The translations under genes and the position numbers were made by a program. A stretch of DNA of 28,295 bases from a virus: positions 1-28,295 of the IMG/VR virus record IMGVR_UViG_3300020205_002878; one strand, 5' to 3'. Of this stretch, positions 2,351 to 28,295 are shown one piece after another (the stretch's first letter is position 1; each line of letters starts with the position of its first letter). The notes under the pieces were generated by a model. That model had not been told where the DNA came from and did not search any database. It saw only the letters and a program-made list of their open reading frames with translations.

Positions 2351-2800
2351 ATGCCTAAATGGATACCACCACAAGCCATTGACTTGAAAAAGGAATATGA
2401 GATTGAATACCGCAATCACATAAAGCCTGATTACGGAGATGTTTTTCCTACATTCAAATCCTTTGTGGCAGCAGCCCAAAAAGGCAAGGTTGTGAATGTT
2501 ACCCCTGCAATGGATAGGCGGATCGAAAATCGAAGTAGTACAAGAAACATGAGAGAGTTGATCTCTTTGGTAAAAACCTACCGATCCTATCCAAAGTTTA
2601 GAAATGAAAAGACCCTTGCCGATTTAGAGTCAAAGATTAAAGGTAATGGCGAGATGTCCATACCTATCGTTTTGCAGTTCTCTGATGGTGGACTTCGCAT
2701 CATGGGTGGAAACACCCGAATGGACATTGGATTTTGGTATGGGAAATCCGTTCCTGTGTTGGTGGTAAAGGTTCCTAAAAGAAAAACATCTGAAGATTAG
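2351..2800 (+). CDS. ParB-like domain protein, 149 aa
   Basis: The C-terminal half (about residues 100-143) has the pattern of the ParB/sulfiredoxin-like fold: a hydrophobic strand, then GGNTRMDIG, then a turn and the strand VPVLVVKV. Small stand-alone ParB-like proteins of this kind occur in many T4-like phages, and their role is generally unknown (candidates are DNA binding, nuclease or NTP-dependent activity). The N-terminal half is basic and probably helical. The start is the ATG at 2351 because the frame upstream runs into tRNA-Tyr. No ribosome binding site precedes it, and a TATAAATA box ends six bases before it. The next gene begins 26 bases downstream with its own strong ribosome binding site. 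Confidence 0.65.
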   Translation: MPKWIPPQAIDLKKEYEIEYRNHIKPDYGDVFPTFKSFVAAAQKGKVVNVTPAMDRRIENRSSTRNMRELISLVKTYRSYPKFRNEKTLADLESKIKGNGEMSIPIVLQFSDGGLRIMGGNTRMDIGFWYGKSVPVLVVKVPKRKTSED

Positions 2801-2826
2801 AATGCGTCTACCCAAGGAGAAATACG

Positions 2827-3105
2827 ATGCCGATTGAATACGAAATGATGTATCTAAAAGATATTGTGGTAAAGGCTATTTCCAAGTTTGCAAATAGTGA
2901 TCGCCCTGAAGAATGGTTATTTGGTGCAGAAAATTCTGTTTTGGATATGATTGAAAACAATGAAAATCCTAACAAGATATTTCAAGATTATCAAATCATA
3001 GCAATGCGGGAACTCGTTAGCCGTGGTTATTGGGTAAAGCACGACACCAGCAGTAATCCTTCTGTTTCGGGTACTATTCTTTTTCGTTTGAATCGTAACC
3101 CTTGA
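2827..3105 (+). CDS. Hypothetical protein, 92 aa
   Basis: I do not recognise this family. The protein is soluble-looking and mostly helical, with a central acidic stretch and a C-terminal basic strand (FRLNRNP). The start ATG is preceded by a clear AAGGAG about 8 bases upstream, unlike the genes on either side. The stop codon overlaps the -35 box of the promoter that drives the UV endonuclease gene. Confidence 0.7.
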   Translation: MPIEYEMMYLKDIVVKAISKFANSDRPEEWLFGAENSVLDMIENNENPNKIFQDYQIIAMRELVSRGYWVKHDTSSNPSVSGTILFRLNRNP

Positions 3106-3129
3106 CATACCCTTTTTGTACGGTATACT
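3102..3129 (+). promoter_or_regulatory. Sigma70-type promoter for a leaderless uvsE transcript
   Basis: A perfect TTGACA (3102-3107), a 16-base spacer and TATACT (3124-3129) end six bases before the ATG at 3136. Spacer length and distance to the ATG are identical to the promoter at 324-351. The gap is CTTTTT, with no Shine-Dalgarno sequence. Transcription should start at or next to the start codon. Confidence 0.8.
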
Positions 3130-14300: not shown

Positions 14301-14730
14301 ACTCTTCGATTTTTCTTATCTCTTTTTCTACTCTGGTTTCAATAATAACACGCTCTTTTGCACTATCCATTAAAGCAGCAGAACGAGCCTTTTCACTTGC
14401 TGTTGTGTTCTGAGCAGCAATTGTTACAGCCTGTTTTGTCTTGTATGCGCTTCTTTCCATAAAGGAAAGGGTGGACAGAAGAGACTCTTCCATCTTTACA
14501 GACATTTTTTGTATGGACTGATCTTGGGATAGTTTTGCTAACAGAACGGTTGTTTCTGCACCTTTGCGTAGGGCAGAAGTATAGCGACCGTATGCACCAC
14601 CAAGTGCTTTGGTACTCAATCTTAGTTTGGGTTCAATATTTGCTAATTTTGCCAACTCCCGATTCAATGATTTTATCTCATCGGGGTCAAGTCCTTGCAG
14701 ATTGATTGTTGGTAGTGATTTTGCTGCCAT
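8371..14730 (-). CDS. Tail tape measure protein, 2119 aa
   Basis: The length, the position after the gp26-like/frameshift pair, and the architecture all point to the tape measure protein that sets tail length and threads the tube. An N-terminal helical part is followed by a very long Ser/Thr-rich, coiled-coil region (about residues 400-1250). A basic amphipathic repeat region (about 1290-1560) and a Gly-rich linker (about 1600-1645) come next. Then there is a hydrophobic domain of several membrane-like helices (about 1650-1960) with repeated AxGLAMMPLA..MQMMS units. At 1.5-1.6 angstroms per residue this would span roughly 320-340 nm if all of it is extended. The ATG shares one base with the stop of the upstream frameshift frame. 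It is on the minus strand. Confidence 0.9.
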   Translation of the reverse strand: MAAKSLPTINLQGLDPDEIKSLNRELAKLANIEPKLRLSTKALGGAYGRYTSALRKGAETTVLLAKLSQDQSIQKMSVKMEESLLSTLSFMERSAYKTKQAVTIAAQNTTASEKARSAALMDSAKERVIIETRVEKEIRKIEESILETRRNTSNMSKEEVKKEVESKKELISVQEKYLDYEKTRIKTEEKSIAESATVSDRLMSNFRDLLQKFADAQTDDQRELIQQRIEGQMLAEKDTLEILTDKYESEKEIIKVGEAELGNLTGDEKSKKETEIKVRKHAILTLNKEISTLKTDTVFRQKQVEATSGQYKKGKRGFAGEVVSKSFTGGLFGALKGEGFGDIFTNMFKIGLERTGILGKKLPKMLGGGNVGAVLYGSQSEEARKASTQTTERIKASGAGISKISTYNEQLDTNLQKAGVAPAVKKTQPTLASTTAVSPDVFSKSITDAVSQSVFTAQEQIPEGTDSLDVNTAIRNAVFSAIVDTTKSTQSTTGALTTEDIMSVMSAVESALRTTEETATSEEVLTTTINALTTKLQSIETAKTALPLEPNAVAPLQTTAEAVEPEQVTTSGKKKSVKTTGVGGIVTDSTTTQSLVLFTDEMKSFAESIKTINQSITTGLDSLTKQITTIASSDLVSTYESTIKSVTDTLTNLELATKQLTECETTLKSTTDAVYAVFDILKTKTTDVSASEEHMKTVTEAVSTALQSLQNQVSDKASSEQVLKTVTDSVSLALTELQAKTSDISSSETKATTGTASVSEQVLKTVTDSVSLAIQTQLQNLQTNASTSSTIEEKIKTVGETLQLLQLKTAEVTTAEEFLRTTTESVTRSFNDLKSNSVTTSFTEATTSFVDSIKSINEAIQSLTTKTLELFGAETTLSSSTIDITKSQQSETLALNTSSVVVNLDIDTQKKSTEQTSKTTEEISRLTSAFDVLTQRIEQLAIDQSKISQEISTASNNIATESLKTNTATSTTAATATRSTAESTSSETLQTSTDAASSALNRVTTTAISLDSAKKDLSETVVRTDDSMTNLGTNINTVVDSIDVSLLQRESTTGEVNTSKDISDELARLKTEETSESNSKKTKTVSTKQKAEDEALVMSEESTRSLIELTAVGKSSSDDLKTIAKVTSEQNARQESSTVSVSDENLRTLADRNISIGEDLVRTSIETMETLRQSVSRQPEGSPGSLLPSGESRMPKMDEFVPLAQEAYTSMIELSKSALEQGSIYTHDIHSEQILSSILSIMRSDSEALSSTQESSEKTAEKTTESSEDLKTQSQKSNEMSKESGKETWKSLYTKTKDKLKEDVRNVVNKSIDTVENVKEKIKSAAGGIKDTTIGLAKKAYSSASGVAQTVGGAIGRKYTAVRESIGRGMIAAKEGTVKGLTTAKESLGRGYTIAKEAVGGRLRATKEKISKFGSTAYAGIKNIFSGRSRESNTFREKVSKFGSKTYSAIKNIFSGRSRESTSRSTSTSFLKIAKEKMSSTFKSVGEFFTKPRGSVGGILNNTKMGIKSAFGRVTKFFGKGEKGVSSGSIISRAKSTLKNTYNRVTDFTKGKFGSLATAAKGGIKGLLGFGKEEANGKSEETALYTKDIQADKWLEDIYNFLKDGNGKKVDEGSSESKDGQGGKEGAAPGGMGKKKGGIGGFLSSLAEGIKSFGDMKVIRGALGLAAVGVSMIPFAIGMGILGQIPFSGILSGLVAIAGLAAILIVVSKFEGDILMGALALAAVGLAMMPLAYSMQMMSGIDLSTIGVALAAVTGLALVAGVIGAIALTGVGAAAIAAGAALIAVIGLAMMPLAIGLQMMSAADPGKLSALAGSLMALVPPIALFSLISPMMALAGLGMIGFGVGLALMSLADPKVLSELAKSLMDLVLPLGIFGFLAELMVLAGIGLGAIGLGMIPLALVTNMINEKGMDAIVGFVNALAAAGPMLIIAALGILATGAALLVLTSAIAASNTLLAAGNILGDIASYLGFDPGPGILGVITTLASQSAQLLQTATALLTIADAVEKVGAAFGALSANPEIALETISTLVSMDATKIQNLQDVSLAMERVTTANQQLRGENQAMRTGAAIGEAGGMGGNASIVNATTVGNTNMIVSPPGGRNSDPSILFSGERYYSMLYR
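10351..10471 (-). repeat. 34-bp direct repeat in the tape measure gene, 87-bp period
   Basis: The same 34 bases occur at 10351-10384 and 10438-10471. They encode two copies of a unit containing KNIFSGRSRES, preceded by similar K(I/V)SKFGS segments, 29 residues apart. Identity at the DNA level suggests a recent internal duplication. Confidence 0.85.
12412..12577 (-). repeat. 46-bp perfect direct repeat in the tape measure gene, 120-bp period
   Basis: The same 46 bases occur at 12412-12457 and 12532-12577. They encode SEQVLKTVTDSVSLA twice, 40 residues apart, in the Ser/Thr-rich coiled-coil part. The flanking units are related but diverged, so the region appears to grow by unit duplication. 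Confidence 0.9.
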
Positions 14731-14948
14731 TATTTCTTCCGTTTGCTTGACGCTGCCTTGATCTTTGCATTCTCGGCTTCGATTCGCTTGTTTTCTTCTT
14801 CAACATAGGAACGAAGCAAGGACACATAGATATCTCTCTCCCACGGAATCATATTTTCAATTTCAGTCAGACTATATTTATGGTGCTGCATCATCTGGAA
14901 ATTGAGATTATAATAATTCGTTAAACTGTTGTGGGAGAGGCAGAAGCG
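14730..14948 (-). CDS. Frameshift extension: tail assembly chaperone T-like segment
   Basis: This frame is -1 relative to the gp26-like gene and stays open through its 3' end. It encodes 72 residues after the slip site, including the motif YSLTEIENMIPWERDIYVSLL and a charged helix (EEENKRIEAENAK). The WERDIY motif is familiar from short genes that follow gp26-type genes in T4-like phages. It could also start alone at the ATG at 14894 (54 residues), but no ribosome binding site is visible there. Its stop shares one base with the tape measure ATG. By position it corresponds to lambda T, made only as a fusion with the upstream protein; the fusion would have 311 residues. Confidence 0.7.
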   Translation of the reverse strand, partial: RFCLSHNSLTNYYNLNFQMMQHHKYSLTEIENMIPWERDIYVSLLRSYVEEENKRIEAENAKIKAASSKRKK

Positions 14949-15664
14949 AAAAAATCTTCTACCCCCCTCAAGATCATGTGTTTTTCAGTTTGACACTTGG
15001 GGCATCGAAAATGAACTTCTTTTTCCACTCTGGGCATATTAGAGATAAAATCAATGATTTTCTTGAAGTTTTCAGTTGGAGTTCCTTCAATAAACTGAAT
15101 AATTTCTTTTTCGGAATAGCCTTTAGGATCAAAAGTCTCATCGCCATCAAAGATCATGTCGATACATTTTGCAATAATCTTAAATACAGTTTCTGTGTCT
15201 CCTGATCCAACTGCTGCATCAGGATCAATGTCTTCTACCATTTCCATATTTGGATAAACCAAGGTGATACCGATTTTATCAGAAAGCATAACTTTATATG
15301 GTGTTTCCATTTTATTTTTATGATTTACTTCAATATCAGCCAAATTTATCTTTATTTTGCCCTGACTTCCGCAGTTTGGGCATACAACCACAGGGTCAAG
15401 AGTTTCTCCAAGCGACTTGCCACGGATTTGAATAAAAAGATATTCAACATCAAATACGGTAAGTTTATTGGGATCAATTGGGGACAGAATACAATTCTTT
15501 AAAATCTGCTTTAGCGCACGATATTGCCCTTTTTTATCTGCTGATTCTAATGCAAGTAGAAGAATCTTTTCTTCTTTGACCAAAAAGGGTCTAAACTGTA
15601 CTATTGTGCCATTCGATGGAATGGTTGTCTCATATGTCGGTGTGCTGATGATTGGCAATGCCAT
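14921..15664 (-). CDS. 26: gp26-like baseplate/tail assembly protein with zinc ribbon, 247 aa
   Basis: The start MALPIISTPTYETTIPSNG, followed by FRPFLVKEEKILLLALES, is the signature of the T4 gp26 family (T4_baseplate domain). That protein assists assembly of the baseplate hub and tail core in T4. Two CxxC pairs (C95/C98 and C221/C224) should form a zinc ribbon. AAAGGAT lies upstream of the ATG. Near the end the gene carries the slippery heptamer T_TTT_TTC in frame (codons 238-239). A -1 shift there would join it to the next frame, as in the lambda gpG/gpGT pair, and the tape measure gene follows directly. In this arrangement the protein probably acts as a chaperone of the tape measure protein; that role is inferred from position. 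Confidence 0.85.
   Translation of the reverse strand: MALPIISTPTYETTIPSNGTIVQFRPFLVKEEKILLLALESADKKGQYRALKQILKNCILSPIDPNKLTVFDVEYLFIQIRGKSLGETLDPVVVCPNCGSQGKIKINLADIEVNHKNKMETPYKVMLSDKIGITLVYPNMEMVEDIDPDAAVGSGDTETVFKIIAKCIDMIFDGDETFDPKGYSEKEIIQFIEGTPTENFKKIIDFISNMPRVEKEVHFRCPKCQTEKHMILRGVEDFFASASPTTV
14948..14954 (-). promoter_or_regulatory. Slippery heptamer T_TTT_TTC for -1 ribosomal frameshifting
   Basis: On the minus strand the gp26-like frame reads GAT TTT TTC, placing the canonical X_XXY_YYZ heptamer T TTT TTC in the correct register. After a -1 slip the ribosome reads CGC TTC and continues for 72 codons to the tape measure start. Without the slip it stops 8 codons later. Confidence 0.75.
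14962..14969 (-). promoter_or_regulatory. Internal Shine-Dalgarno-like stimulator (GAGGGGGG)
   Basis: On the minus strand GAGGGGGG lies 7 bases before the slippery heptamer. Shine-Dalgarno-like sequences about 10 bases upstream stimulate -1 frameshifting in E. coli dnaX. The purine run encodes Arg-Gly here, so coding constraint alone is an alternative explanation. Confidence 0.5.
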
Positions 15665-15732: not shown

Positions 15733-16251
15733 TTATGCTTCGGTTTTTATTTTATAACAGGAGAATGTAGCAGAGAATTTTATGTATTCACCACCTTCAT
15801 TAGAGAAGGCGATTGCCTGTCTGTTTATTGGATAGAGTCCCAATATTTGAGAGATAACGGTTTCTTCACTGGAGAGTTTTATATCACAGGAATTTGCCGT
15901 ACAATAGTCGTCAAAATATCCAATGCGGATTACACCCTTCTCATCAACACCCATAACATCATTCATCCATTTTTCTACTAAATAGATAATCTTGAAATCT
16001 TTTGGAACTCTCCAACTTACCTCAAAATCTTCATAAGAAACACTTGATGCAACCTTTGCAGATATCATATTTGCTATTGTGCTTTCATTGGTTGAGATGG
16101 AGCGACCAGGAAGATTAACTGTTTCAATATAATCGTTGTAAGCATTCAACGGGCTTGCGTTTTTTCCTATCCACATGAGATCATAATCAGAGGTAAGAAT
16201 ATAGTCTCTACCGCTTCGTAGTTGTTCTTGTATCTCTGATACCTTTTTCAT
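15733..16251 (-). CDS. Tail tube or tube-initiator protein (gp19/gp54 family), 172 aa
   Basis: The protein fits the T4 gp19-like tube fold: an early LPGRSI segment, a middle segment EDFEVSWRVPKDFKIIYLVEKWM, and a terminal strand pair QAIAFSNEGGEYIKFSATFSCYK matching the end of gp19 and gp54. Such proteins form tube rings or start the tube on the baseplate. At 172 residues it is nearer gp19 in length, but its neighbours (gp26-like and gp4-like) suggest an initiator or second tube protein. I chose the ATG at 16251, 4 bases after the previous stop; longer readings run into the neighbouring gene. Confidence 0.65.
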   Translation of the reverse strand: MKKVSEIQEQLRSGRDYILTSDYDLMWIGKNASPLNAYNDYIETVNLPGRSISTNESTIANMISAKVASSVSYEDFEVSWRVPKDFKIIYLVEKWMNDVMGVDEKGVIRIGYFDDYCTANSCDIKLSSEETVISQILGLYPINRQAIAFSNEGGEYIKFSATFSCYKIKTEA

Positions 16252-16255
16252 CCCA

Positions 16256-17008
16256 TTACTCCATTTCATGCATATGTTTGAGAAACTCTCTGATCTTGAC
16301 TCTTGTTTCCACCCATACTCTTCTACCCTTTGCCTTGATAAAGTTCTCACAAGGAAGAGCCACAGCATTTCCCCATTGATTTGATGGTATCATTACAGGT
16401 CTTCCAATGATTTTTCCTGGATCATATGATCTAATACAAGCCATACCAAATACAAAGCGAATCGTTTTTATCAAATCATAGTTTACACGAAAGTATCCCA
16501 CTCCCTTTGGTGGGTCTTTTTCGCCCATTCTTGGGCTGCTCAAATGCAAAAGTCTATCTATAAGTTCTGCACGAAGGTCGGGATCAAGATAGTGGAGATT
16601 TATACCCAATATATTGCCACTACGATCCGTGCTTTCTGTTGGCAGCGTTATTATGAGTGGAGTAATATCATAATATTGAAGCACGGAACGGGTTTTTGGG
16701 TGGTACATGAATGCAAACATTCTTCCCGGAAGTTCCATATACCGCTTGGATGCAATATTCTTGTGATTTGAAAGCAGGGAAACTGTTACATCATGGTTAT
16801 TAGGAAGTTCAATTTGACCACTTTTTATTGCATCCATAAACCATTCGGTTGCACCTCGGGAAGATCCTGATTTCTTTGTTTCTTCAATAAGGGCATGATT
16901 CATATCTTTTAGAATATCTTCACTTTTTCTTAGATCGTATACCATATCACCCATACCATTCGTGGATACAGAGCCGCCGTGTGGTGTTGTGGTTTTTTTC
17001 TTATTCAT
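16256..17008 (-). CDS. Conserved T4-like phage protein, 250 aa, unassigned
   Basis: An N-terminal polar helical part (about 1-85) is followed by a domain with LPGRMFAFMYHPKTRSVLQY and GINLHYLDPDLRAELIDRLL. The second half has LIKTIRFVFGMACIRSYDP and ends in RVKIREFLKHMH. I associate the PGRM...F.Y.PKT....YYD..P and LNLHYL.P..RA patterns with conserved proteins of T4-like marine phages near tail and head-completion genes. I cannot name the function. The start is the ATG two bases after the stop of the gp4-like gene, and the 3' end is 4 bases from the tube-protein start, so the three genes are tightly coupled. Confidence 0.6.
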   Translation of the reverse strand: MNKKKTTTPHGGSVSTNGMGDMVYDLRKSEDILKDMNHALIEETKKSGSSRGATEWFMDAIKSGQIELPNNHDVTVSLLSNHKNIASKRYMELPGRMFAFMYHPKTRSVLQYYDITPLIITLPTESTDRSGNILGINLHYLDPDLRAELIDRLLHLSSPRMGEKDPPKGVGYFRVNYDLIKTIRFVFGMACIRSYDPGKIIGRPVMIPSNQWGNAVALPCENFIKAKGRRVWVETRVKIREFLKHMHEME

Positions 17009-17010
17009 AT

Positions 17011-17454
17011 TTAGAATATATCGTCCTCGGTAAGAATGACGAACTTCCATTCTCTTTCTTCTGCAAATTTTTGGGCGGCTTCCCATTTGCCCTGGTTTAC
17101 TGCCCATGCTTTTGCCTCATATATGTAGTTTGATTTTTGCTTTTTAGTGGGCTTTTGGGCTTGCTTTGGCTCTTTGCATTGTTTCTTTGGTTTTATTTCA
17201 ATAATTGATATCTTTGGAACACCATCCTTGTCCAAACTCTCAATGATAAAATCTACAAAATAGGTGTGGGGACGACCATCAAGCGGCGATATGTAAGGAA
17301 TCTTTACTATTTCTGATCCCCATTTGGTTATATTTGCATTGGTATCACAATAAACCATAAAACGGCGTTCCCAAAGAGACAGATAGCGAATTTTATCTAA
17401 ATCACCGACATACTTTCTTGGATTTTCGGGTTTGTACTTTCCTTTGTAGGACAT
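17011..17454 (-). CDS. 4: Head completion nuclease-like protein (T4 gp4/gp50), 147 aa
   Basis: It resembles T4 gp4 along its length: MSYKGKYKPENPRKYVGD, then SLWERRFMVYCDTN, WGSEIVKIPY.SPLDGR.H.YFVDF, EIKPKKQ, and a C-terminal WKFVILTED. The D68...E86-x-K88 arrangement fits the PD-(D/E)XK nuclease fold. In T4 this protein is needed to finish filled heads before tails attach. The ATG at 17454 gives the standard length; the frame is open upstream to 17580 but that part overlaps the divergent gene. It is the first gene of the minus-strand block. Confidence 0.9.
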   Translation of the reverse strand: MSYKGKYKPENPRKYVGDLDKIRYLSLWERRFMVYCDTNANITKWGSEIVKIPYISPLDGRPHTYFVDFIIESLDKDGVPKISIIEIKPKKQCKEPKQAQKPTKKQKSNYIYEAKAWAVNQGKWEAAQKFAEEREWKFVILTEDDIF

Positions 17455-24737: not shown

Positions 24738-27700
24738 ATGGCTGAAACAAGACCTTATGTAATAAATGCAAATGTAATAAAACTATTGAACTCTGCGCCT
24801 GTTCCTAATATGCGCCCGAGTCTTGGTTCGTTTGTGCAACGCAAAACCATTGATATTGGTTGTTATCCGTTTCCATTCATGGTTAATTCTGAGAATGTTC
24901 CGCTTGATGGCAGAACTATTATAGTTAATGGTGAGTCCACAAGACTTCCTATCCGACCTGTTCCGTATTGGTGTTCCGAGAACACATATGCACGGTATTA
25001 TGGCGATCCTACTTATAATAATGGAATAATAAGTTGGGCAGGAAAAATAGGCTATCTAAAATCAAAAATAGCAGGAAATGATATAAAGGGATTGTCTGCA
25101 TTTGAGTATGATAGTGTTATGGGAGTATCTTTTCCCAGTGTTCGCTACAATACGGCATTCATAGGAATGAATAATACTGTTTCACAGGAATGGATTGATG
25201 TTCGTGACGCTGCTTTTGCTCCAGGAGGATTTAGCGGTGCTCTTTTCTCCCAAGGCTCTACTCTTGCAATAGCAGAAAATATACTATTCAAAATTTGGTC
25301 TGGTGTAACATTTGAGGTGCGAAATGCAACAGATCAAAATGGAGGTGTGACATATGGTTTTCTTCCAATGGAAGAGTTTATAAACAAGGGCGGAACATAT
25401 AGTGGTTTTTTTGCTCGCTACAACTATGGGTGTTTGGAAGAAATATTCAATAGCGATAGATTTGCAACTATTGGTCTTGCTCCCAATGATTTTTGGGATG
25501 GTCAAGGAGTATCATACGGTGTGAGTGGCGGCATGACAGGAGAACTATTTCTTCTTAATGCAGTAACCGCAGGAAATGATTCAGGATCTCTCTATATCGA
25601 AACAGCAGGAGCAAGTATTGATTTTCCCTATAGTGTACTTTTGGCTGGAGGCGGTGGTGGAAAAACTCTATCGGGTCGTCAACTTGCACTAAATCTGTAT
25701 AGTCTTGGAAACGATTCTCCTTTCATTGGATCAGGTGATCCAAAGGGTGGATTTGTTGATACGATGGCTATGCTTTTGGGAACAAATCAGAAAATTACTA
25801 CTCTGATTAGTGGTCAAACCGCATCCCTTCGTGCATTGGATTTCAATAATCCTTGCTCTGCTTCATTTACCTATAGAAACGATACAGAATTGGGTAGATG
25901 GGGATATGATGTACAACGATTGCCTATTGGTGAAGACATTTATACTCCTGGCCCTGCTCCGGAAGTAGGTTGCAATGTGTCTACATTCACCGAATATCTT
26001 CAAGGAGCAACTGCCAAAGCACATGGAAACCTACATCCGCTTTCATGGATGTTTTGGAAAGGCATAAAATCAGGAAATCAACTTACTGGATATTCCGAAG
26101 GGTTTGTGCATGACTTTGTTGGTTTAGATTCCGAGGATTTTCATCCAATCTACAACAAACTTGAAGGAATTCACGATCACCTTTGCTATGAATTTTTTGA
26201 TAATACTGGATTGAAGAGTCGTGTATACTATCCACTAAGACCTATTACAAAAGGGTATTACGATACCAATATTGCTCCACTATACGATATAAATCTTGAT
26301 TCTGGTGCATTGGCTCAAGCCTTTGGTTCTACTCTCAGTACGAGACACGACACTGCTTTCCCTGATACTTTCAAGGGAGATGGTTCTGTCAATCTTGTCG
26401 ATGGAGCAATAAGTCTCAGGAATCTTGATGCCGATCTTGATGGAATCAATCTTCAATTCCCAGGAACAAACAACCTTGATGGCGTGACAGGAATTCTTTT
26501 CCCGTATTTCATTCCCTTGGCTTCGTTTGCAATGGAAGGAATAAACACAGGAACTCCTCCTGGAAGTGGAGATTTGACGATCAATGGCGAATTCAATAAT
26601 TTTGCAGATTGGACTAAGGTTAAATTCGAATTAGATGGAACATCCGATCCTGTTTCCCTGTACCAATATTATGCAGACGGTGTTTCTTCTGCTGCCGATA
26701 CCAATCCTGCGGTCAGCCCATATACCGTTGATCGTGAGGGTTCAAGTACCAAGCCGAATTTCCGACTTTTCTCTTGGAATGCTCTTTCACGAATAAGTCC
26801 CCGTGAGTTTCCTCTCACCGAAGATTCACAGATCGTAAAGTCTTCATTCAAGGCTGTATCAAACGATGCATATGGCAAGGCACAATATACCAATCCAAAT
26901 ACGCTTTCTCTTGATGGAAGCCTGGTCGATGTAGATCCTCTGCACTATCCCCCAACAGCATTGCCAACAGGATTTGGGCAAGGCTTGACCTATTCCATAT
27001 TGGACGGAAGTTCAACTGTAGTCGAACCATTGGAATGTGCAAGTTTCATCAATGTCATAAGATATGCAAATAATACTCCTCCCGATGAAGAGACAACACC
27101 AGGAGCATTCGGACTCACAGCCGAGAGAAAATTGATATCCGAAGTTGTCTTGGGTGCTTCCACAAAGACATTCGTTCAATTTGATCCCGATAAGGCAGTA
27201 GAAGCAAATATTTCAAATAATTTCAATAGAACAGGAAATCCCACTACTGTTCCGAATATGTCGTCAAACTTCTTTCTTGAAACCGATGTTTCCAAAGGAA
27301 ATTTCCAAAACTTCTTCTTTACAACAACAACAAAAGATTCTAGTTTGGCTGTGTTTGATGGAACTTATTATCTAACAGCCCAAGAATACTTTGACAAGTA
27401 TATCAATGCCAGTTCGGCACTTACATGGTGGCAGAATATAGATACGGAAAGTCTTGCAGTCGATGGTGGTTTTGATCTTACAAATGGAGCAATTGTCGGA
27501 ATAGCGGCAAATATAACGGATAAACTCCTTTCTGGATCTGGAAATTGGGCATTACAGTCTTCTGCTCAATCAGGATTCCGTGGAATACCATATGATCCAG
27601 TCAATGATACAGATGGTGGAAATGGATTCGTTATTGAAGGAGTACGACAAGCAATAGCGGATGGATTGCATCCTGCATTTGTCTACAGGATATTCACTAC

Positions 27701-28295
27701 CAATGTTTTACAGCAACTGGGAGATGAAGAGTTCAACTGCATTCAAGGATGGAGAAATTCTGCTGGTGTTCCTTGTGACCAAATATTGCAAGTATCCGAT
27801 GCATTGAAAACCAATGGCGGTGTGTATAATTCGTATTTCTCGGGTTCCACTGGATGTAATGCCGTTGGCAATGAATTCACAGCGTCGGAATTCTCCACAC
27901 AAAAAGGAAAAGACTTCTTTGGAAAATGTGCGATTCGAGTACAGACAGGAAGTAGTCAGGGTGGGGCTGGTGGGGGATCGTTGGTCTATGCATATGATGA
28001 CTATTGGTATGCTCCTCTTCCAACAACGGACAGTTCAAATCCTTTCTTTGTATATCAAAATATCAACTGTGCTGGAGGATCAAGCATATCAGATCCTCCG
28101 ATGGAAGCAAGCCTGAGCATATTTGGATTGCAGTTTGCAGAAGCACTGAAGATTGCAGAACCTAAACCCAATGTGGATCTAGCAGATCCATTACAGGTTC
28201 GTGACCAATTATTTGCTTTCCCAGGAAATACCGCATCCTTGGATGGTTCTAGCAATAATGTTGGAACAGTAAATGTTGGAAATTGGCTGCAAGGA
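24738..28295 (+). CDS. Giant putative tail/baseplate structural protein, partial (at least 1186 aa)
   Basis: From the ATG at 24738 (GGTGGAG upstream) the frame is open to the right edge with no stop, giving 1186 codons. The N-terminus (TRPYVINANVIKLLNSAPVPNMRP) contains no signal peptide. The protein is rich in Asn, Gly, Ser and Thr with mixed beta-type patterns, a Gly run (AGGGGGKT) that is not a convincing P-loop in this context, and scattered cysteines. It is in the baseplate operon, so a large wedge or fibre-type virion protein is likely. No family was recognised, and the C-terminus is outside the window. Confidence 0.7.
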   Translation, partial: MAETRPYVINANVIKLLNSAPVPNMRPSLGSFVQRKTIDIGCYPFPFMVNSENVPLDGRTIIVNGESTRLPIRPVPYWCSENTYARYYGDPTYNNGIISWAGKIGYLKSKIAGNDIKGLSAFEYDSVMGVSFPSVRYNTAFIGMNNTVSQEWIDVRDAAFAPGGFSGALFSQGSTLAIAENILFKIWSGVTFEVRNATDQNGGVTYGFLPMEEFINKGGTYSGFFARYNYGCLEEIFNSDRFATIGLAPNDFWDGQGVSYGVSGGMTGELFLLNAVTAGNDSGSLYIETAGASIDFPYSVLLAGGGGGKTLSGRQLALNLYSLGNDSPFIGSGDPKGGFVDTMAMLLGTNQKITTLISGQTASLRALDFNNPCSASFTYRNDTELGRWGYDVQRLPIGEDIYTPGPAPEVGCNVSTFTEYLQGATAKAHGNLHPLSWMFWKGIKSGNQLTGYSEGFVHDFVGLDSEDFHPIYNKLEGIHDHLCYEFFDNTGLKSRVYYPLRPITKGYYDTNIAPLYDINLDSGALAQAFGSTLSTRHDTAFPDTFKGDGSVNLVDGAISLRNLDADLDGINLQFPGTNNLDGVTGILFPYFIPLASFAMEGINTGTPPGSGDLTINGEFNNFADWTKVKFELDGTSDPVSLYQYYADGVSSAADTNPAVSPYTVDREGSSTKPNFRLFSWNALSRISPREFPLTEDSQIVKSSFKAVSNDAYGKAQYTNPNTLSLDGSLVDVDPLHYPPTALPTGFGQGLTYSILDGSSTVVEPLECASFINVIRYANNTPPDEETTPGAFGLTAERKLISEVVLGASTKTFVQFDPDKAVEANISNNFNRTGNPTTVPNMSSNFFLETDVSKGNFQNFFFTTTTKDSSLAVFDGTYYLTAQEYFDKYINASSALTWWQNIDTESLAVDGGFDLTNGAIVGIAANITDKLLSGSGNWALQSSAQSGFRGIPYDPVNDTDGGNGFVIEGVRQAIADGLHPAFVYRIFTTNVLQQLGDEEFNCIQGWRNSAGVPCDQILQVSDALKTNGGVYNSYFSGSTGCNAVGNEFTASEFSTQKGKDFFGKCAIRVQTGSSQGGAGGGSLVYAYDDYWYAPLPTTDSSNPFFVYQNINCAGGSSISDPPMEASLSIFGLQFAEALKIAEPKPNVDLADPLQVRDQLFAFPGNTASLDGSSNNVGTVNVGNWLQG

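Follow-up and report, generated by a model that had tools for sequence, protein, structure and literature searches.

The gp26-like gene on the minus strand of the window, by which we mean the whole stretch of viral DNA analyzed here (28,295 nucleotides; IMG/VR record IMGVR_UViG_3300020205_002878), carries what sequence comparison indicates to be a real signal for programmed -1 frameshifting, strongly conserved and located in a gene for a tail assembly chaperone; it is a further example of a mechanism that is already known. The gene is very probably a T4-like (Kyanoviridae-type) tail assembly chaperone gene from which short and long forms are made by -1 frameshifting.

The anatomy of the locus is read directly from the DNA (Table 1). 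The gp26-like gene lies directly upstream of the tape measure gene. A base-by-base check agrees with the first-pass annotation, which had placed a slippery heptamer T_TTT_TTC in register at codons 238 and 239 and, after it, an open -1 frame of 72 codons reaching the tape measure ATG; the stop of that frame overlaps the ATG in AAATAATGG (TAATG). The Shine-Dalgarno-like sequence that it had proposed upstream, GAGGGGGG, is also in place, separated from the heptamer by 7 bases (TAGAAGA), and the predicted fusion does come to 311 residues (239 + 72).

Table 1. Features of the putative frameshift locus in the window and atypical junctions in other phages.
Feature	Position	Strand	Family or remark
gp26-like protein, short tail assembly chaperone form (TAC-N, G-like), 247 aa	14921..15664	-	PF12322, phrog_150
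Slippery heptamer T_TTT_TTC, in register, codons 238-239 (F238-F239)	14954..14948	-	
GAGGGGGG, Shine-Dalgarno-like element	14969..14962	-	Probable stimulator
-1 frame segment, 72 codons plus stop: gp51 / T-like C-terminal domain (TAC-NC, GT-like)	14948..14730	-	
Zero-frame tail past the predicted slip, ASASPTTV-stop	14921..14947	-	Unconserved
Tape measure gene, 2119 aa	8371..14730	-	phrog_1272 tail length tape measure, E 2.8e-5
Atypical site in Ackermannviridae and vibriophages	L085 3257-3304; L095 ~1936-1983; L096 ~1897-1944; L097 ~1876-1923; L098; L099; L090		

Three other features of the window deserve mention. The tape measure ORF is unusually long, and its family match is weak. Within 15733-17107 of the minus strand, a tail-tube-like ORF (15733-16368) overlaps a gp2-like ORF (16256-17107) by about 113 nt; one of the two starts has probably been called too far upstream. 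A large ORF on the plus strand (24738-28295; at least 1186 aa) continues beyond the end of the contig.

The gp26-like protein matches PF12322 over nearly the whole profile (E 1.6e-62, positions 2-219 of 219) and phrog_150, a baseplate hub family (E 4.8e-67). Its AlphaFold2 model has a pLDDT of 90.5, and the viral predicted structures that match this model are gp26-family proteins. The best PDB match in a fold search is the HK97 tail assembly chaperone 2ob9 (E 1.1, probability 0.35; non-significant), a likeness that at this E value is suggestive at most, and a sequence search for solved chaperones returned no PDB match. The first-pass annotation had called the downstream segment T-like; such a segment is present, but the anonymous label can be replaced, as the segment matches phrog_634, "baseplate hub assembly catalyst" (E 1.4e-28, profile positions 58-119 of 121), and is, on this sequence match, the gp51 domain of T4-like phages. 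In alignment, it contains the motif of that domain, xxLSHxSLxxxYxxNF..HHKYSLTELENMxPWERxIY. A further match, to the C-terminal end of phrog_150, showed that both parts form one protein in some phages.

Within the window, the 20 ORFs contain 15 in-register X_XXY_YYZ sites, a single one of which, that in the gp26-like gene, is a T6 heptamer; it is also alone among the 15 in opening a 72-codon -1 frame. Base composition would yield such a frame with a probability of about 0.01. Of 280 window positions close to gene ends, 43 reach 72 open -1 codons too, in their case because of neighboring genes. Taken alone, the open frame is weak evidence.

The decisive evidence comes from comparing sequences of relatives, in all 80 of which both features are kept. 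The sample was drawn from IMG/VR and comprises the 80 relatives that best match the gp26-like protein (36-43% protein identity), with 77 unique junctions; relatives and junctions share ancestry and are not phylogenetically independent. An in-register TTTTTT[C/T/A] lies 7 to 31 nt ahead of the gp26 stop in 80/80, and the gp51 domain occupies the -1 frame from the slip onward, likewise in 80/80, with 48-65% identity in the -1 frame protein. The homologue comparison that the first-pass annotation had proposed thus has a clear outcome, with the T-run and the -1 domain conserved and the zero-frame tail not: the zero frame terminates 0-8 codons past the slip, and after exactly one codon in 61 of the 77 unique junctions. 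Over the first 20 codons past the slip, the -1 frame is free of stops in 77/77, while upstream of the slip it is often closed and unconserved.

At the protein level, F238 is invariant and F239 nearly so. The codon preceding the T-run encodes S, D, N, A, R or G, and its third base is nevertheless T in 77/77 junctions, compared with 48.7 expected from synonymous usage. The first Phe codon of the run is TTT in all unique junctions; the second is TTC in 56/76, versus 181/852 (21%) elsewhere in the gene (p 3e-20, a value that overstates significance because the relatives share ancestry). Codon choice at the predicted slip thus opposes background usage and shows the nucleotides around it to be under selection.

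At the codons where the window has GAGGGGGG, the relatives show a GAG-GG(N) element, enriched over background codon use when shared ancestry is ignored. The upstream Glu codon is GAG in 30/40 versus a background of 458/1710 (p 5e-10) and the upstream Gly codon is GGG in 20/74 versus 22/498 (p 8e-9), both p-values again ignoring shared ancestry. This enrichment is consistent with a Shine-Dalgarno-like stimulator. A conserved downstream stem or pseudoknot was also considered as a stimulator and was rejected: RNAalifold found zero conserved pairs downstream in 29 sequences, and the downstream RNA fold of the window is weaker than that of its shuffles (z +1.73). With no RNA structure found downstream, stimulation, if any, must arise elsewhere.

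The mechanism that we infer, from slippage and its rate to Shine-Dalgarno stimulation and the chaperone role, would operate as follows. Most ribosomes would finish the gp26-like frame and yield the 247-residue short form (TAC-N). A fraction would slip one base back on T_TTT_TTC, probably aided by the upstream GAGGGGGG, and would read on through the gp51-like domain to yield the 311-residue long form (TAC-NC). If lambda G/GT is a guide, the 2119-residue tape measure protein would be coated by both forms, which would nucleate the tail tube on it.

Alternatively, gp51 could be a small gene in its own right, read in the downstream frame from its own start codon, as the annotations of several cyanophages have it, and the poly-T run could be incidental. 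Databases do list gp51 separately (57 aa in S-PM2, 31 aa in P-SSM7, ORF207 in nt-1), and an in-frame ATGATG occurs in the window 60 nt past the slip. However, these annotations are inconsistent in where they start gp51, which is unannotated in Ah1, Aeh1 and PM10. The -1 frame ATGs sit within the conserved domain and shift position among relatives, nine of which have no -1 frame ATG before +102 nt, a point already inside that domain, which argues against an independent start; upstream of the ATG in the window, no Shine-Dalgarno-like sequence was found. We rejected an independent start on these ATG positions, which still leave room for GTG or TTG. Contrary to the separate-gene model, conservation begins at the slip, and the model leaves both the invariant T-run and its atypical codon use unexplained. 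We regard a separate gene as very unlikely.

Less probable again is translational coupling, in which ribosomes would terminate at the end of gp26 and then start again in the -1 frame to make a free gp51-like peptide. TAATG or TGATG overlaps do occur at the zero-frame stop in nt-1, KVP40, Cr30, Atu_ph04, Mendera, D533 and K476, but the window and most Kyanoviridae-type relatives have no start codon at the gp26 stop, and the position of that stop relative to the -1 domain varies whereas that of the T-run is fixed. The near-invariance of both phenylalanines would fit a T-run kept merely for Phe-Phe in the protein, beside a -1 frame open by chance. This explanation is the least credible of all: a Phe-Phe constraint would not fix or bias synonymous positions against background usage, and a chance opening is already refuted by the conservation of the -1 frame protein and by its own family match. 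Programmed -1 frameshifting thus remains our preferred reading.

The same arrangement extends to named phages, 13 of which have a T_TTT_TT[C/T] site together with the -1 domain: S-PM2, P-SSM7, Mosig, Ochrobactrum OC, Caulobacter Cr30, Agrobacterium Atu_ph04, Vibrio nt-1, KVP40 (putative name, locus L124), Aeromonas Ah1, Aeh1, Menderavirus (Mendera), Xanthomonas X1 and Acidovorax ACP17. By group, the site recurs in KVP40/nt-1, Aeh1, Kyanoviridae, Pootjesviridae, Menderavirus and others. Several annotations at these junctions are at odds with the sequence. In P-SSM7, gp51 is mis-annotated as a 31-aa gene (L093 2801-2896) with the -1 domain present, and in Ah1 and Aeh1 (L089 2717-2884; L102 1902-2069) it is unannotated although the -1 domain is there. 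Pseudomonas phage 30-3 (Arenbergviridae; L091, around 2660) has AGT TTT TTC AGA GAA TCC TAG near the end of gp26 and an open -1 frame, with a downstream domain that is doubtfully alike. For Stenotrophomonas phage IME-SM1 (L100 1798-1890), a +1/-2 frameshift was considered and rejected because other Menderavirus records have one more T and an ordinary site; the difference is likely a one-base homopolymer sequencing difference, as a result of which the annotated 280-aa gp26 runs into another frame.

A gp51-like domain in the -1 frame is found also in Ackermannviridae and in vibriophages D533 and K476, where ATT_TTC or CTT_TT[C/T] stands in place of the T6 run, with the stop one codon later. These may be atypical shift sites or sites of re-initiation. 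We offer only tentatively, and consider rather doubtful, a broader proposal: that the shift across the T4 superfamily is driven by an internal Shine-Dalgarno-like GAGGG without RNA structure, and that the [AC]TT_TT[CT] of Ackermannviridae and vibriophages (e.g., GAG ATT TTC ATT TAA), with only one tRNA able to re-pair, is a different class of -1 site in the homologous position.

In T4-type phages, for which we used T2, the two parts are distributed differently. As in the window gene, gp26 consists of PF12322 alone and gp51 of PF12322 plus the C-terminal domain; unlike in the window gene, these are two paralogous genes, and the 3' end of gp26 lacks the slippery run. The run is absent from the gp26 end in both T2, which ends in GAG TTC TTT GAG, and SonariX. 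In T2 gp51, PF12322 spans residues 1-201 (E 4e-55) and is followed by the same C-terminal domain in a single frame; the two parts thus do occur naturally as one fused protein. On this domain evidence, T2 gp26 and gp51 are paralogues corresponding to the predicted short and long products. The two T2 genes are divergently oriented (L083 1692-2441, minus; 2492-3118, plus). In a tree with several long branches and weak deep forks, the gp26 and gp51 of T2, SonariX and Aer31 form one clade (97/93), near Ah1 and nt-1, which, within the limits of that tree, fits a duplication inside this lineage that replaced an ancestral frameshift. A review of T4 counts gp26 together with gp51 among the hub assembly chaperones and describes gp51 as absent from the final particle (PMC3004832).

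If this reading is correct, the gp26/gp51 locus in most T4-like phages, here in a large independent sample, would be a single frameshifting gene. Two earlier remarks by Sullivan et al. (2010; PMC3037559), who do not mention frameshifting, would then be explained: that gp51 in cyanophages has only about 20% of its usual length, and that Aeh1 lacks it. In Aeh1, the domain is in fact encoded by the -1 frame of gp26. Our literature search on frameshifting with the hub assembly catalyst or with cyanophage gp51 returned nothing direct. Annotations of the gp51 part are at present mostly wrong or absent, and a systematic correction is possible.

The mechanism itself has a precedent. Vladimirov, Gautam and Davidson (Virology 2022;566:9-15, doi 10.1016/j.virol.2021.11.003) reportedly identified the tail assembly chaperones of T4-like phages, and are said to have found frameshifting conserved in several T4-like groups, with T4 using genes 26 and 51. 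The Adele paper cites them for -1 slippery poly-T sequences in T4-like TAC-N genes (PMC12846349), and PRFect cites them for some T4-like phages that have separate short and long genes in place of frameshifting (PMC10885494). To judge from these two citations, both the mechanism and the relation between gp26 and gp51 have already been published as a bioinformatic prediction. The first-pass annotation, which proposed a -1 frameshift joining a gp26-like protein to a T-like segment before the tape measure gene in the manner of lambda G/GT/H, is strongly supported by our comparisons as to mechanism; its suggestion of novelty for the gp26 family does not hold, such frameshifting having been reported for T4-like phages in 2022, as far as the citing papers convey. 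Two details are perhaps as yet undescribed: the enrichment of GAGGG upstream and the atypical site in Ackermannviridae.

In lambda, which makes gpG and gpGT, a minor -1 product carries an added T domain, encoded immediately ahead of the tape measure gene. The window gene resembles this system in arrangement, in that the minor -1 product would add a T domain upstream of the tape measure; lambda differs in its slippery heptamer, and the window phage is a T4-like myovirus. In the tail assembly chaperone genes of Vandenendeviridae and Andersonviridae, which are myoviruses too, a -1 frameshift is likewise conserved at the 3' end of TAC-N, but with a GTTTTT site and in other phage families (PMC12846349). 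Closest are the T4-like chaperones of Vladimirov et al. (2022), which, as cited, belong to the same family and share the short and long forms and the poly-T -1 site; relative to them, what is new here would be the identity of the window contig.
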